Shown in pieces: positions 5,814-31,751 of a DNA stretch of 64,000 nucleotides. The position numbers were made by a program, and so were the translations under genes. Source of the stretch: a virus; IMG/VR virus record IMGVR_UViG_3300005337_000019, positions 1-64,000 of that record. One strand, written 5' to 3'. Within the stretch, counting starts at the first letter, position 1. Each line of letters begins with the position of its first letter. A model generated the notes under the pieces. That model was not told the origin of the DNA. It did no database searches and worked only from the letters and a program-made list of their open reading frames with translations.

Positions 5814-7391
5814 ATGGATTTATCCGTCCGCACGCTCATCGGGCAGAAGCTCGAGACCTGGTATCACGATCCCGTAGCGATGTGCTACGACGTGCTGCCG
5901 AGGGAAGAGCGTCCGCGCCCGCAGCAGCAGGAAATCCTGCATGCGATTTGGGCGAACGATGCCGTGCTCTGCGCCGCGCATCGCGGCTGGGGCAAGTCGC
6001 GCACCGAGGCATACGCCGGCATCTGCTTTCTGCCCACGCACGCCAACTCTCTTCTCTTCACGATCGCGCCGACGTGGGAACAAGTCCTCAAGGGCGTGTG
6101 GATCGACATCCGGCACCTGTGGGCCGTGTCGAAGCTGCCGAGCATCTTCCCGCAATGGCGCGTGATGACGCACGAGATCGTGACGCACCCGCTCACACCG
6201 AAATGGCGGGGCGTCGGTGTCGCTGCCTCGGAAGTGCAGAACGTCGAAGGTCAGCATCCGGCGGCGGGACGCCCTGCGATGGTACTCGCCGACGAGTGCA
6301 AAGCGATCGGCGACGAATTCCGCGAGTCCGTCAAGGGCATGCTCAAACACCCGGAGTCGCGTTTCGTGGGCATCGGTACGCCTGGCATTCCGTTCGGCTG
6401 GTTCTACGAAGGCTTCACGTCGAAGCGGCGCAACTACAAGACGTTTCAATTCCGCGGCGATCAGTCGCCGGATCCCGAGATCAGAGCGCACGTAGAGAAA
6501 ATCGGGAACGAGGTGGGATGGGACGATCCATTCTTCCGGCAGCAGTGGCTCGCGGAATTCACCGGCGCCGACGAGGGCGTCATCATCCCGCTCAAGATCG
6601 TGCAGCCGGCCATCGGCCGGAAGTTCGCGTACTCGTCCACCTGGCGCAAGATCATGAGCGTCGATCCCGCCGGCAAGGGCGCGGATCACACGGTGGTGAC
6701 GTATCGATACGGCCCCGTCACGATCAAACAGAAGGCGTGGCAGGGCTGGGACATCATCAAGAGCGAGCGCGAGGTGATCGCGCTGATTCTGGAGTGGCGT
6801 CCCGAGCGCGTTGTTATCGACGAGACGGGACTCGGCGAAGGCATCGTGTCGCACGTGCGCGACGCTCTACAGGGCAGCGGAATCGAAGTCGTGGCGTACC
6901 GCAGCGGCGATCGACCGCGCGATCGCGAACGCTATGAGAACCGCAAAGCCGAAGACGTATACGCGCTGCGCGAGAAGTACAGAGAGGGCGCGAAGGAGAT
7001 CGAGAAGGCGCATGCCGAGCTGCGCGCTCGACTCGCCCACCTGCGCCTGCAGGACGACGTGGTCACGAAAACATTCGACTACATTCATCGCCTGACGTAC
7101 GGAAACTATTCGGCCGAGCAGATCGCGGCGGTTCGTCCGGGATCACCCGCGGCGATGGCGCTCGCCGACGAGATCGCAAAGAAGCTGACGGTCGGCATCG
7201 GCATCAGCGTGCCGAACGAGCCGAACCTGGTCGGTCAGACATGCTCGTGGACGGCGACACGATCAAAGGCGAGCCGCACGATGGTGGTCGATCCGAAGGA
7301 CTCACCGGATTACGCCGACAGCGACATGATGGCGTACGCGGTCGACACGATCGGCTCCTCGCTCAAGGGCACTGACCTGAGCCTGCTCTGA
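5814..7391 (+). CDS. terL: terminase large subunit
   Basis: ATP-driven DNA-packaging motor with a nuclease that cuts the concatemer and docks on the portal. The ATPase domain has a Walker A variant HRGWGKS (56-62) and Walker B MVLADE (156-161). The C-terminal RNase-H-like nuclease has acidic residues in MSVDPAG (D284), VVIDETG (D336) and the YADSDMMAYA segment near the C terminus. The length of 525 residues is usual. It is followed, unusually, by a separate small transcription unit (7391-7950) before the portal gene. Confidence 0.95.
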   Translation: MDLSVRTLIGQKLETWYHDPVAMCYDVLPREERPRPQQQEILHAIWANDAVLCAAHRGWGKSRTEAYAGICFLPTHANSLLFTIAPTWEQVLKGVWIDIRHLWAVSKLPSIFPQWRVMTHEIVTHPLTPKWRGVGVAASEVQNVEGQHPAAGRPAMVLADECKAIGDEFRESVKGMLKHPESRFVGIGTPGIPFGWFYEGFTSKRRNYKTFQFRGDQSPDPEIRAHVEKIGNEVGWDDPFFRQQWLAEFTGADEGVIIPLKIVQPAIGRKFAYSSTWRKIMSVDPAGKGADHTVVTYRYGPVTIKQKAWQGWDIIKSEREVIALILEWRPERVVIDETGLGEGIVSHVRDALQGSGIEVVAYRSGDRPRDRERYENRKAEDVYALREKYREGAKEIEKAHAELRARLAHLRLQDDVVTKTFDYIHRLTYGNYSAEQIAAVRPGSPAAMALADEIAKKLTVGIGISVPNEPNLVGQTCSWTATRSKASRTMVVDPKDSPDYADSDMMAYAVDTIGSSLKGTDLSLL

Positions 7392-7409
7392 TTCGGCGTC
7401 GTGTAGAAT
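7391..7409 (+). promoter_or_regulatory. class II promoter
   Basis: ATTCGGCGTCGTG joined to TAGAAT (7404-7409) then GCG. It starts just after the terminase stop and serves the structured leader and the gene at 7529. The upstream element is nearly identical to the one on the other strand at 63529-63547 (ATTCGGCGTGATG). Confidence 0.6.
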
Positions 7410-7417
7410 GCGACCGA

Positions 7418-7506
7418 GTCAGCGCGGTCCATGGTGTCGGAGGAGACCTCCGGACTGGCGCTCTTCGGGCACGTCGGAATGCCACATGAAACAGCGCCGC
7501 GCTGAC
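7418..7506 (+). ncRNA. structured leader RNA
   Basis: GTCAGCGCGG (7418-7427) pairs perfectly with CCGCGCTGAC (7497-7506). This 10-bp stem closes an 89-base element that also holds the hairpin CGGAGG-aga-CCTCCG (7438-7452) and a further GC-rich portion. It begins about 9 bases after the -10 and ends 22 bases before the ATG at 7529, so it would be the 5' leader. It could be a cis-regulator or a processed small RNA. No known riboswitch class was recognised. Confidence 0.55.
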
Positions 7507-7528
7507 ATCATTCGATTGAGGTGAACTG

Positions 7529-7777
7529 ATGGAGCAGACCTTTCAGGAACGAATCGAGAAGAAGCCGGACGGCACGCCGCGCCACCCTTCGACCACCGCC
7601 GTGCTGCGGCACTTCAAGTTCGACCATCTGCCGGCACATCTTCAGGCCGTGAGCGAGCCGTGTTCGCGCCTGGCGTTCAAGATGGCGGACGAGCTTCCGG
7701 AGGGACCGGACCTGACGTGCGGTCTGCGCGACCTGCTTACGGCGAAAGACAACTTCGTCCGGTCGCTGGTCAAGTAG
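7529..7777 (+). CDS. small helical protein, Acb2/Tad1-hairpin-like candidate, 82 aa
   Basis: Starts at ATG 7529 with a GAGGTGAA site. The protein has a polar N terminus, then two predicted helices: HLPAHLQAVSEPCSRLAFKM and, after ELPEGPDLT, CGLRDLLTAKDNFVRSLV. This size and pattern (start of a long helix, ELPEGPEL-like turn, LRxLLxAKDxxVR) occur in many small phage proteins. They resemble the helical-hairpin family that includes the cyclic-nucleotide sponges Acb2 and Tad1. The resemblance is by eye only. It has its own promoter, structured leader and terminator, so it is expressed independently of the packaging genes. Confidence 0.7.
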   Translation: MEQTFQERIEKKPDGTPRHPSTTAVLRHFKFDHLPAHLQAVSEPCSRLAFKMADELPEGPDLTCGLRDLLTAKDNFVRSLVK

Positions 7778-7819
7778 AACGGTCGCCCGTGCGTCATCCG
7801 CCGCGGATTGATCACCGCC

Positions 7820-7909
7820 GGCGAGGTGCGCATTGCGCGGTTCGAATCCGCGCCGTCCCGCTCAGCGGGTCGTAGACGAATGGGTAAAGTCACGGGCCTG
7901 AAAAGTACG
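7820..7909 (+). tRNA. tRNA-like sequence with halves in permuted order (Phe, GAA, if functional)
   Basis: First comes a consensus T arm: GCGCGG (7835-7840), loop TTCGAAT, CCGCGC (7848-7853). Then CGTCCCGCT (7854-7862), one base, and AGCGGGTCG (7864-7872); these two strands pair over 9 positions with one T-T mismatch, like an acceptor stem closed into a hairpin. Then a D arm, TA then GAC (7875-7877), loop GAATGGGTAAA, GTC (7889-7891), and an anticodon arm with loop CTGAAAA (anticodon GAA). So the 3' half precedes the 5' half. T stem plus acceptor make 13 rather than 12 pairs and the anticodon stem has a mismatch, so it may be a relic. Confidence 0.4.
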
Positions 7910-7950
7910 CGCGAGCGGCGTCTCGATCGGATCGCCGCTCGCGTTTTCTC
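7910..7950 (+). terminator. rho-independent terminator
   Basis: CGCGAGCGGCG (7910-7920) pairs with CGCCGCTCGCG (7933-7943), followed by TTTTCTC. It ends the 7391 unit directly after the tRNA-like element and before the portal gene. Confidence 0.8.
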
Positions 7951-7968
7951 GCGCCGTTTTGCTACCTT
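7937..7968 (+). promoter_or_regulatory. possible late promoter for portal
   Basis: GCTCGCGTTTTC, 11 bases, then TGCTACCTT. It matches the three late motifs loosely: 7 of 12 bases in the first box, one base shorter gap, second box like TGCGACTCT. It overlaps the terminator and lies 58 bases before the portal start, where a late promoter is needed. Confidence 0.35.
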
Positions 7969-8026
7969 TCCCCTGTAGCAGACACCGGCAGGGCCGAGTA
8001 TCTGCGCATCTCCAAAGGAGCCGCGC

Positions 8027-9826
8027 ATGACTCTCGGCACGACGCTGACCGCCGGAACCGATCAAGTAACGTTCGCCGACAACATCGCTCCGTCCGTCGT
8101 GATGAACAGCACGACCACGGACCTCGTTCGCTTCTTCCGCGACTACGCGAACAACGGCAAGAACCCCGAGTACACCGCTTTCGAGGCGCGCATCAACTAC
8201 GGCTCGACGCCGTTCCGCCGCACGCAGGGCGCGGGGGTATGGGAGTTCATCAACGACGCCGTCGACGGTGCCGGCGGGTTCGCGAACGGCGCCTATCTCT
8301 TCCCCTTCAAGCTCGAGCTCGACGCGCAGAACTATCCCACCCTCAAGTATCGGAAGCGGCAAGAACAGGCCGACTACGACAACTTCGCGAGCCACGTCTG
8401 CAACACGCCATGGGATGTGATCGTCGAAGCGGCCGACATGATCGAGCGGAAGGCCAAGGACGGCACGCCGGCGGCCGAGCTGCTGGATGAGTTCTGGCAC
8501 AACTGCGATCGCCATGGGACGGCGATCCTCGACTTCCTCGAGTTCGCCCACAAACAAGCGCGCCGGTTCGGGACGGGCATCATCATCATGGACCGCCCGC
8601 CGTTCGTCAATCGAAGCGAGGCGGACAACCGCAAGGCGGAAAACCGTCCGTGGGTGTATGCCGTTCCGACGCAGAACGTCGTGCACTGGGAGTTCGATGA
8701 GCATGGCGAGCTCGCCGGCATCATCGTGCTCGAGCCGCAGCTCGCCGCGGCGGAAGACGGCGGCGGTCGAAAGTCCGCCACGAACATCCGCGTGTGGACG
8801 CGCGACCAATGGGCCGTGTTCCGTCAGACCGACGAGAAGCGGCAGGACGGCACCATCGGCAAGATGCCCGGCACCGCGGAATCGTACGAGATGATTTCGA
8901 GCGGCACGCATCGCCTCGGCGAGGTACCGGTCGTGGCAATCTACAACGACCCTCCGAAGCCGGGCCATCTTCTCGCGCACAGCGAGATGCTGGATGTCTC
9001 CCGCCTGGCGCAAACCGTCTACAACATCGACAGCGAGTCGCGTGAGATCGAGCGGAAGTGCGCGCTGTTCCTAGCGATCCCGGTCAAGTCGACCGACGCG
9101 TTCAGCGAAAAGAAGGCGATCCTCTCAACCGAAAGCGCGCTGCTCGTCGACGGTGACGCCGGCCTGCCGGCGTGGATTTCGCCGGACCTCGCCATCCTCG
9201 AAAAGCTCGACGAACGGCGCACGGCGAAAAAGAACGACGCATATCAGATGGCCGGCCTCGGTGCGCTCGTCGGCACGACCGAGAACGTGAAGACCTCGAG
9301 CGGCTACCACGCCGAGGTTGAGGTGAAGAAAACCGAGCGGCGCATCTCGCGTCACGCAGCCATGCTCGAGGCGGCGGAGAAGCGTCTCGCGCGCCTGTAC
9401 CTCAAGTTCTACGGCATCGACGCGGACAAGCAAGACGATCTGTTCACGATCACCTACCCGCGCGAATATGGCGTTCGCGACATGGATGGTCTGGTGCTTC
9501 GCACGCAGAGCATCCTCGACATGAACTTGGGCGAGACGTGGGACGGCCGCACGCTCGAAACGCTGGCAAATGCGCAGTTCCCTCGCATGACCGACGCCGA
9601 GATCCACGACATGATCGAAGAGGCCGTGAAAGAGCGTAGCGCCGTTCGGAAGCAACAGCAGGAGCTCGACCGGGTAACGGCCATGGCGAAAATGATCGCG
9701 AAACCGGAGGCCGGTCTAGGAGCGGCGTCGAACCGACCGGGCGCACCGGCGCCTGGCGGCGGCGCGCCGAAGAACCCCGCGGCGAAGCCGCCGGCGCCGA
9801 AGCAAGCCGCAGCGCGCCCGAAATAG
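8027..9826 (+). CDS. portal protein
   Basis: AAAGGAG precedes ATG 8027. The 599-residue protein follows the terminase, as portals do. The N terminus FFRDYANNGKNPEYTAFEAR and the body (GTGIIIMDRP, VPTQNVVHWEFDEHGELAG, LDVSRLAQTVYNIDSES) look like a large SPP1/DUF4055-type portal. The C terminus is Ala/Pro-rich and disordered. A portal forms the dodecameric ring at one capsid vertex, docks the terminase and later joins the tail. Identification rests on size, place and general pattern, with no single diagnostic motif. Confidence 0.75.
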   Translation: MTLGTTLTAGTDQVTFADNIAPSVVMNSTTTDLVRFFRDYANNGKNPEYTAFEARINYGSTPFRRTQGAGVWEFINDAVDGAGGFANGAYLFPFKLELDAQNYPTLKYRKRQEQADYDNFASHVCNTPWDVIVEAADMIERKAKDGTPAAELLDEFWHNCDRHGTAILDFLEFAHKQARRFGTGIIIMDRPPFVNRSEADNRKAENRPWVYAVPTQNVVHWEFDEHGELAGIIVLEPQLAAAEDGGGRKSATNIRVWTRDQWAVFRQTDEKRQDGTIGKMPGTAESYEMISSGTHRLGEVPVVAIYNDPPKPGHLLAHSEMLDVSRLAQTVYNIDSESREIERKCALFLAIPVKSTDAFSEKKAILSTESALLVDGDAGLPAWISPDLAILEKLDERRTAKKNDAYQMAGLGALVGTTENVKTSSGYHAEVEVKKTERRISRHAAMLEAAEKRLARLYLKFYGIDADKQDDLFTITYPREYGVRDMDGLVLRTQSILDMNLGETWDGRTLETLANAQFPRMTDAEIHDMIEEAVKERSAVRKQQQELDRVTAMAKMIAKPEAGLGAASNRPGAPAPGGGAPKNPAAKPPAPKQAAARPK

Positions 9827-31266: not shown

Positions 31267-31521
31267 ATGCCGGTTGATGTTGAACTGCTCGGCCGCCCGC
31301 GCTCATGCCGCTTCCGCGGCCTTCCGCCGCCCGCTGGCGCCGTCTTGCGCGCGCGCCGCGCCTGGTACGTCGTGCTCGCCGTCCGCGCGACGCGCAGCAC
31401 CGATTACCCGTCGAATCTGACCATCGGCCGCATCACCGAGACCACAGCGCGATCGCTCGCTGCCGCCGGCGCGCCGCGGTGGTCATTTGCATGGGACCGC
31501 GGCCGCCGGCGAAAAGTCTGA
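31267..31521 (+). CDS. small hypothetical protein, 84 aa
   Basis: ATG 31267, four bases after the previous stop. Basic, with strands RAWYVVLAVRATRS and a helix TARSLAAAGAPRWSFAW. It is the last gene of the block and is followed by the hairpin at 31523. Confidence 0.55.
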   Translation: MPVDVELLGRPRSCRFRGLPPPAGAVLRARRAWYVVLAVRATRSTDYPSNLTIGRITETTARSLAAAGAPRWSFAWDRGRRRKV

Positions 31522-31522
31522 C

Positions 31523-31542
31523 GGAAACTCTCGCGAGTTTCC
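31523..31542. terminator. hairpin between convergent genes
   Basis: GGAAACTC, TCGC, GAGTTTCC: a perfect 8-bp stem with 4-base loop between the rightward gene ending at 31521 and the leftward gene ending at 31551. Position fits a shared terminator, but the T tracts are weak on both strands. Confidence 0.4.
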
Positions 31543-31550
31543 CGGAAACA

Positions 31551-31751
31551 TCAGCGTTTGTATCGCTCGATCGCGTCGATGTGCGTCCGCGCGATGCTGC
31601 ACGGTTTGCGCGGACTGCACGTGGCGCAGGTCTGCTCGTGGTCGCGGAGCTCGCGGCGGGCGTGCTCGCAGCGGCGGCGGGCCTCGAGATCGCTGATGCT
31701 ACGCGGTGGGCGGGCGGGGGCGGTTGCCTTGCGGCGCGTCGTGTTTTTCAT
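31551..31751 (-). CDS. small early protein with CATCSP motif, 66 aa
   Basis: MKNTTRRK at 31751 recalls the MKTTN starts of the leaderless regulon. RRCEHARRELRDHEQ then TCATCSPRKPCSIA matches the 23324-23527 protein (DHYDQCATCSPGRDCSLA), so this antisense-looking frame is a real gene. Upstream on its strand lies CTGTAGAAG, a weak -10, and further off the inverted repeat at 31803-31822. Its last bases overlap no other convincing gene. Confidence 0.65.
   Translation of the reverse strand: MKNTTRRKATAPARPPRSISDLEARRRCEHARRELRDHEQTCATCSPRKPCSIARTHIDAIERYKR

Follow-up and report, generated by a model that had tools for sequence, protein, structure and literature searches.

A putative circularly permuted locus for tRNA-Phe(GAA) in an uncultivated phage, probably decayed or strongly diverged, and permuted tRNA genes in other phages

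The window (the whole 64,000-nucleotide stretch analysed here, drawn from a virus record of 82,990 bases) contains an element in which a T arm and a 3' acceptor strand lie ahead of a 5' acceptor strand, a D arm and an anticodon loop. With its 3' half first and its acceptor strands complementary to each other, the element has the arrangement of a circularly permuted tRNA gene. We interpret it, with moderate confidence, as a circularly permuted tRNA-Phe(GAA) locus that is akin to the permuted tRNA genes of other phages and has probably decayed or strongly diverged. It sits between a terminase-like gene with an adjoining small ORF and a portal-like gene (Table 1). The window copy matters chiefly as a pointer to the permuted tRNAs of other phages; alone, it may be a relic.

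Table 1. Features of the permuted locus and its surroundings, with two entries from other phages (window positions unless a locus is named)
Feature	Position	Strand	Remarks
Terminase-like gene	5814-7391		named by similarity to annotated phage genes
Small ORF	7529-7777		beside the terminase-like gene, upstream of the element
Alternative 3' anticodon strand GCCCGTG	7785-7791	+	perfect 7-base complement of CACGGGC (7891-7897); seen in fold
Strong hairpin	7790-7832	+	pair probabilities mostly near 1
Contiguous permuted tRNA-Phe(GAA)-like element	7828-7909	+	rotated ARAGORN call; 3' part 7828-7863, 5' part 7864-7909
T arm, loop TTCGAAT	7835-7853	+	6-bp stem 7835-7840/7848-7853; pair probabilities 0.99-1.0
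Acceptor hairpin	7854-7872	+	strands 7854-7861 and 7865-7872; loop 7862-7864 (TCA)
T8, A9 and D arm GAC-GAATGGGTAAA-GTC	7873-7891 (D arm 7875-7891)	+	sequence; covariance-model match
Anticodon arm CGGGC-CTGAAAA-GTACG	7893-7909	+	G/A mismatch in stem; loop CTGAAAA 7898-7904, anticodon GAA 7900-7902
Terminator-like hairpin and T run	7910-7947	+	before the portal gene; a neighbour, outside the tRNA
Portal-like gene	8027-9826		named by similarity to annotated phage genes
Class A flanks: left AGG-N5-UNCAGCAA, right N5-CCUGUU	among L135-L251, L079, L088, L118 and others		
BUCT-ZZ01 permuted stretch	L364:1498-1620		order read from the sequence; no feature annotated there

An earlier note on this DNA, made from its letters, had described the order of the parts and their motifs, and both stand in the sequence as described. 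The same is true of the acceptor strands, which were said to pair at 8 of 9 positions; they do so on the longer count (7854-7862/7864-7872), the exception being a T/T (U·U) mismatch at 7856/7870, and the acceptor loop comprises one to five bases. In a 231-nt fold, the T arm and the acceptor hairpin have pair probabilities of at least 0.93 and together form a stack of 13-14 bp, and the local fold is very stable (z -2.8 to -3.1). U33, G18G19, A14 and A21 are intact, as is the T loop.

In genomic order, neither ARAGORN nor Rfam calls a tRNA at the element, and the sole tRNA that they report in the window is an ordinary tRNA-Gln at 27980. After rotation, ARAGORN recognises positions 7828-7909 as tRNA-Phe(GAA). 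We scanned each window position on both strands with ARAGORN, rotating 36 bases before and 46 bases after it, and the 127,836 rotations called one locus, at 7863-7866, as tRNA-Phe(gaa). Twenty dinucleotide-shuffled windows (2,556,720 rotations) yielded 1 call in total and therefore about 0.05 false calls per window, a background that is not negligible. No calls were obtained from the remaining record (39,818 rotations) or from two stretches of a sister phage (L003 and L131). With other segment lengths, 46+46 bases called the same locus and 40+40 an undetermined tRNA there; no call came from 52+34, while 60+28 and 80+42 recovered only the ordinary tRNA-Gln.

The covariance-model search proposed in the earlier note was carried out with R1, a model built from 21 permuted phage tRNAs, from which the window and the loci L006, L008 and L009 had been left out. 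R1 matched the element with 29.4 bits (E=2.8e-6), and it also gave ordinary tandem tRNAs scores of about 13-33 bits. Because tandem tRNAs score up to 33 bits, the match shows tRNA ancestry and not permutation itself. The acceptor strands form 6 of 7 Watson-Crick pairs, which only 5 of 568 ordinary tandem phage tRNA pairs equalled or bettered.

Whereas the earlier note knew of no phage case, we found many other phage loci with permuted tRNAs. A loose pattern gave at least 120 loci, in which a structural script identified at least 56 junctions with acceptor pairing of 6/7 or better. At least 28 of these 56, the window included, lie outside any ARAGORN tRNA; L006, L008 and L009 are among the 28 and look like degenerate tandem genes. 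A narrower, complete scan covered 107 loci with 110 junctions including the window. ARAGORN tRNAs overlapped 70 of the 110 junctions, and in 38 of the remaining 40 (window included) five or more of the 7 acceptor pairs are Watson-Crick. The loci were chosen by tRNA-like patterns, so these counts give no prevalence. That the element consists of the two halves of one permuted tRNA, as had been claimed from the letters, is borne out by the rotation call, the acceptor pairing and the 38 junctions; its function is putative only.

Among the matches listed, the collected loci hold 177 permuted-like junctions, 141 of them distinct by left flank, and some may be false. Their acceptor loops measure 3-7 bases in 143 of the 177, and 174 keep the canonical 5+7 T/acceptor register. 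The window element is one of the three, among these matches, that have an extra nucleotide and an extra T/acceptor pair.

One type of flank defines what we call class A modules. The sequence TTAGG-N5-TNCAGCAA ahead of a T arm occurs in at least 120 viral stretches, and the same flank has 8 matches in 257 billion bases of genomes. Among the matches listed, the permuted acceptor hairpin is found in 91 of 129 distinct modules. The right flank was taken as the first CCTGT 25-220 nt downstream with no pairing condition imposed, and it was present in 119 of the 129 modules listed. In 115 of those 119, the five bases before CCTGT pair with the left N5 at four or more of the five positions, although the 115 pairings are not independent events because the modules are interrelated. 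The mean was 4.54 paired positions versus 2.89 with shuffled partners (largest of 1000: 3.27), and 41 different left N5 occur among the listed modules. We read these covarying flanks as forming an RNA helix. A pseudoknot of at least 5 bp between flank and acceptor loop is predicted in 22 of the 91 listed modules with the hairpin, compared with a mean of 10.3 and a maximum of 17 after shuffling. Permuted tRNA modules of this class, with their covarying flanks, are apparently undescribed.

One class A case comes from a cultured phage, Synechococcus phage BUCT-ZZ01 (ON615601.1), which infects S. elongatus PCC 7942. A stretch of this phage combines the class A flank with a T arm, acceptor strands and a D arm that are arranged in permuted order, and has CCAGTT instead of CCTGTT as its right flank. 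This cyanophage permits direct testing. Class A flanks also surround sequence without a recognised tRNA (L364:1430-1495, L079 and L118).

Flank types other than class A, among them class G, were compared by eye only. In a second type (L264:8245-8600, L302:8617-9050, L322, L327, L331, L342 and L098), the 5' part contains the whole anticodon arm, and the flanks appear to fold into an outer helix followed by an internal loop, which ends in ACUC, and then an inner helix. Further permuted tRNAs, partly in tandem, have a left flank ending in UUACUUC or similar (L285:5293-5600, L115 and L047).

At the window element, the left class A motif is not in the upstream flank, and the module script, run over all loci, listed no class A module there. 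In a general run test for a flank helix, 38 of 153 permuted loci versus 5 of 62 tandem controls reached P<0.05, and the window element was not significant (P=0.38). A narrower test found a 13-pair outer helix at the element with P=0.05, so the element may still have a flank module. Flank duplex energy did not discriminate.

The anticodon stem can be read in two ways. In the first reading, the element is contiguous, the break lies within the variable loop and the stem CGGGC/GTACG carries a G/A mismatch. In the second, GCCCG at 7785-7789 is the 3' anticodon strand and pairs perfectly, and the hairpin between it and the T arm becomes an outsized variable arm. The second reading is favoured by the isolated 119-nt fold but not by the 231-nt fold, and a 7-base complement like GCCCGTG/CACGGGC also turns up in 2.5% of shuffles. 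ARAGORN accepted the first reading unchanged, and the second only with the hairpin removed. The mismatched anticodon stem that had been noticed at the outset thus holds for the first reading and not for the second.

Judging by its sequence, the window copy is probably decayed, this being its most likely state in view of the extra nucleotide, the T/T and G/A mismatches, the flank-helix result of P=0.38 and the ordinary tRNA-Tyr that the sister phage has in this interval; a working copy is less likely. We envisage that the ancestor would have been transcribed with its 3' half first and that its outer ends would have been joined in the anticodon stem or the variable loop. RNase P together with 3' trimming may have opened the tiny acceptor loop, so that CCA could be added. 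The flank helix typical of clear members may have disappeared from the window copy or may never have been there, and the mismatches of this copy suggest that it no longer matures efficiently.

A broader proposal, which we hold to be doubtful though conceivable, is that permuted tRNAs belong to an undescribed phage system, in which a small, conserved RNA module in the flanks, or an enzyme recognising it, would direct maturation and the acceptor loop of 3-7 bases would be opened, with the window element as a GC-rich working member. We also consider it unlikely that the element is simply a working permuted tRNA-Phe gene, whose ends a ligase would join and whose acceptor loop RNase P and 3' trimming would open before CCA addition. 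The intact tRNA positions, the rotated call, the tiny acceptor loop that is the rule among the permuted junctions listed and the many cleaner phage cases speak for such a gene, whereas both mismatches, the extra pair and the non-significant flank helix speak against it. So does the enzyme search, in which RtcB, RNA_ligase and RNA_lig_T4_1 had no match in the window's record, possibly incomplete, or in the sister's. In ten permuted-tRNA records, excluding those of the window and its sister, RNA_ligase matched at E<=0.001 in seven (six above cut-off), RNA_lig_T4_1 in three and RtcB in one; these counts come from phages with permuted tRNAs alone, and no association is claimed.

Leftovers of a tandemly duplicated tRNA, namely the 3' half of copy one followed by the 5' half of copy two, would show the same order of parts and would never have matured as a permuted molecule. 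The earlier note had argued that leftover halves of different tRNAs would not be complementary; this rules out different tRNAs but not tandem copies of one tRNA, since outer-truncated copies of the same tRNA also give complementary strands. Tandem phage tRNAs often lie close together (275 of 568 pairs at most 5 nt apart), and the sister phage shows that tRNAs occur in this interval. However, where no complete tRNA adjoins a viral junction on either side, the junction is nearly always a permuted tRNA (38 of 40), and we recognised no remnant of the outer halves that would be missing, which makes tandem leftovers a distinctly unlikely origin.

Still less probable is a tRNA-like structural RNA with another role (a decoy, a processing signal or a permuted tmRNA-like RNA without a coding sequence) that keeps its acceptor end closed. 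The very stable fold, the long T-acceptor stack and the pairing of the termini if 7785-7791 is used would suit such an RNA, but it would need neither a canonical D arm nor a Phe anticodon loop, and no Rfam tmRNA match was found up to E=10. An attP origin was rejected on the reasoning that integration into a tRNA leaves normal and not permuted order at attP, and a permuted group I or II intron-exon arrangement was rejected because Rfam gave no such match at gathering threshold in the window or at 13 other permuted loci.

Returning to the interpretation as a permuted tRNA locus, circularly permuted tRNA genes are known from red algae and archaea (reviewed in PMC3978253), where they are processed at a bulge-helix-bulge by the splicing endonuclease. 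The window element likewise has its 3' half first and a short sequence between the acceptor strands; it differs in its phage setting and in that no bulge-helix-bulge was noticed there. The permuted two-piece tmRNA has the same topology of T arm, acceptor strand, intervening loop and acceptor strand, and PMC11915505 describes its processing by tRNA enzymes with no end joining. The window element differs in possessing a D stem as well as an anticodon arm for Phe. Circularly permuted group II introns resemble the proposed system in that permutation yields RNA circles, and the term tRNA is absent from the main text of the paper concerned (PMC8637638); the window and the 13 other loci differ by their lack of an intron match. 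The other phage modules of class A, class G and further types share the order, the tiny acceptor loop and the phage setting, but nearly all have the canonical 5+7 register and, in class A, covarying flank helices, and the window element shows neither.

We found no report of phage permuted tRNA genes in the open PMC literature, bioRxiv and most subscription papers being outside its scope. Permutation is apparently an undescribed way for phages to encode tRNAs, of which many uncultivated phages carry cleaner versions than the window copy, and phage tRNAs would consequently be undercounted by tRNA finders. In algae and archaea, the splicing endonuclease acts on permuted tRNAs at the bulge-helix-bulge. 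In infected bacteria, a route of RNA end joining may operate without this known endonuclease.

Two flanking signals had also been proposed. A promoter ahead of the element was not recovered, as a scan of 7300-8100 found no sigma-70-like promoter. The terminator fared better: the hairpin and T run that follow are terminator-like, though the scan, with its loop limit of 8, did not list them. The sister phage L003 has the same 3' arm and T run ahead of its own portal gene, and the terminator-like element therefore belongs to the neighbourhood and not to the tRNA.

No named phage gave a DNA homolog of the terminase-portal region, and the sole close relative found is this sister phage (L003/G001), with a terminase 77% identical. 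Comparison with relatives had been suggested as a check on the permutation. The sister phage has an ordinary tRNA-Tyr in the corresponding interval. The element's specific pattern found no homolog of the element among viral stretches from which decay or constraint could be judged. We interpreted the four stretches that matched the pattern (L006, L007, L008 and L009) as tandem tRNAs, having inspected L006 and L007 directly; L008 and L009 share the L006 sequence around the neighbouring T arm.

In G001, the syntenic counterpart of the window's tRNA-Gln region carries promoter-like sequence and, behind it, a T arm with a capped acceptor hairpin and TAG; the D arm there is degenerate. In L131:1423-1592 of the sister phage, a promoter-like TTGACA-16-TATACT precedes a T arm and a capped acceptor hairpin. 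Part of this stretch (L131:1501-1545) is a second candidate with E=5.1e-7, a degenerate D arm and a fold z of -1.46, for which rotation and ARAGORN gave no call. The sequence AAAGTCTGACGGAAACTCTCG that follows the capped hairpin in L131 recurs at window position 31513 (31500-31560), where the T arm is missing. A structured stretch right after the terminase gene, whose window copy had no Rfam match of note up to E=10, is conserved between the window (7398-7512) and the sister phage (L003:6576-6686), with CTCCGGAC and ACATGAAACA identical in both.
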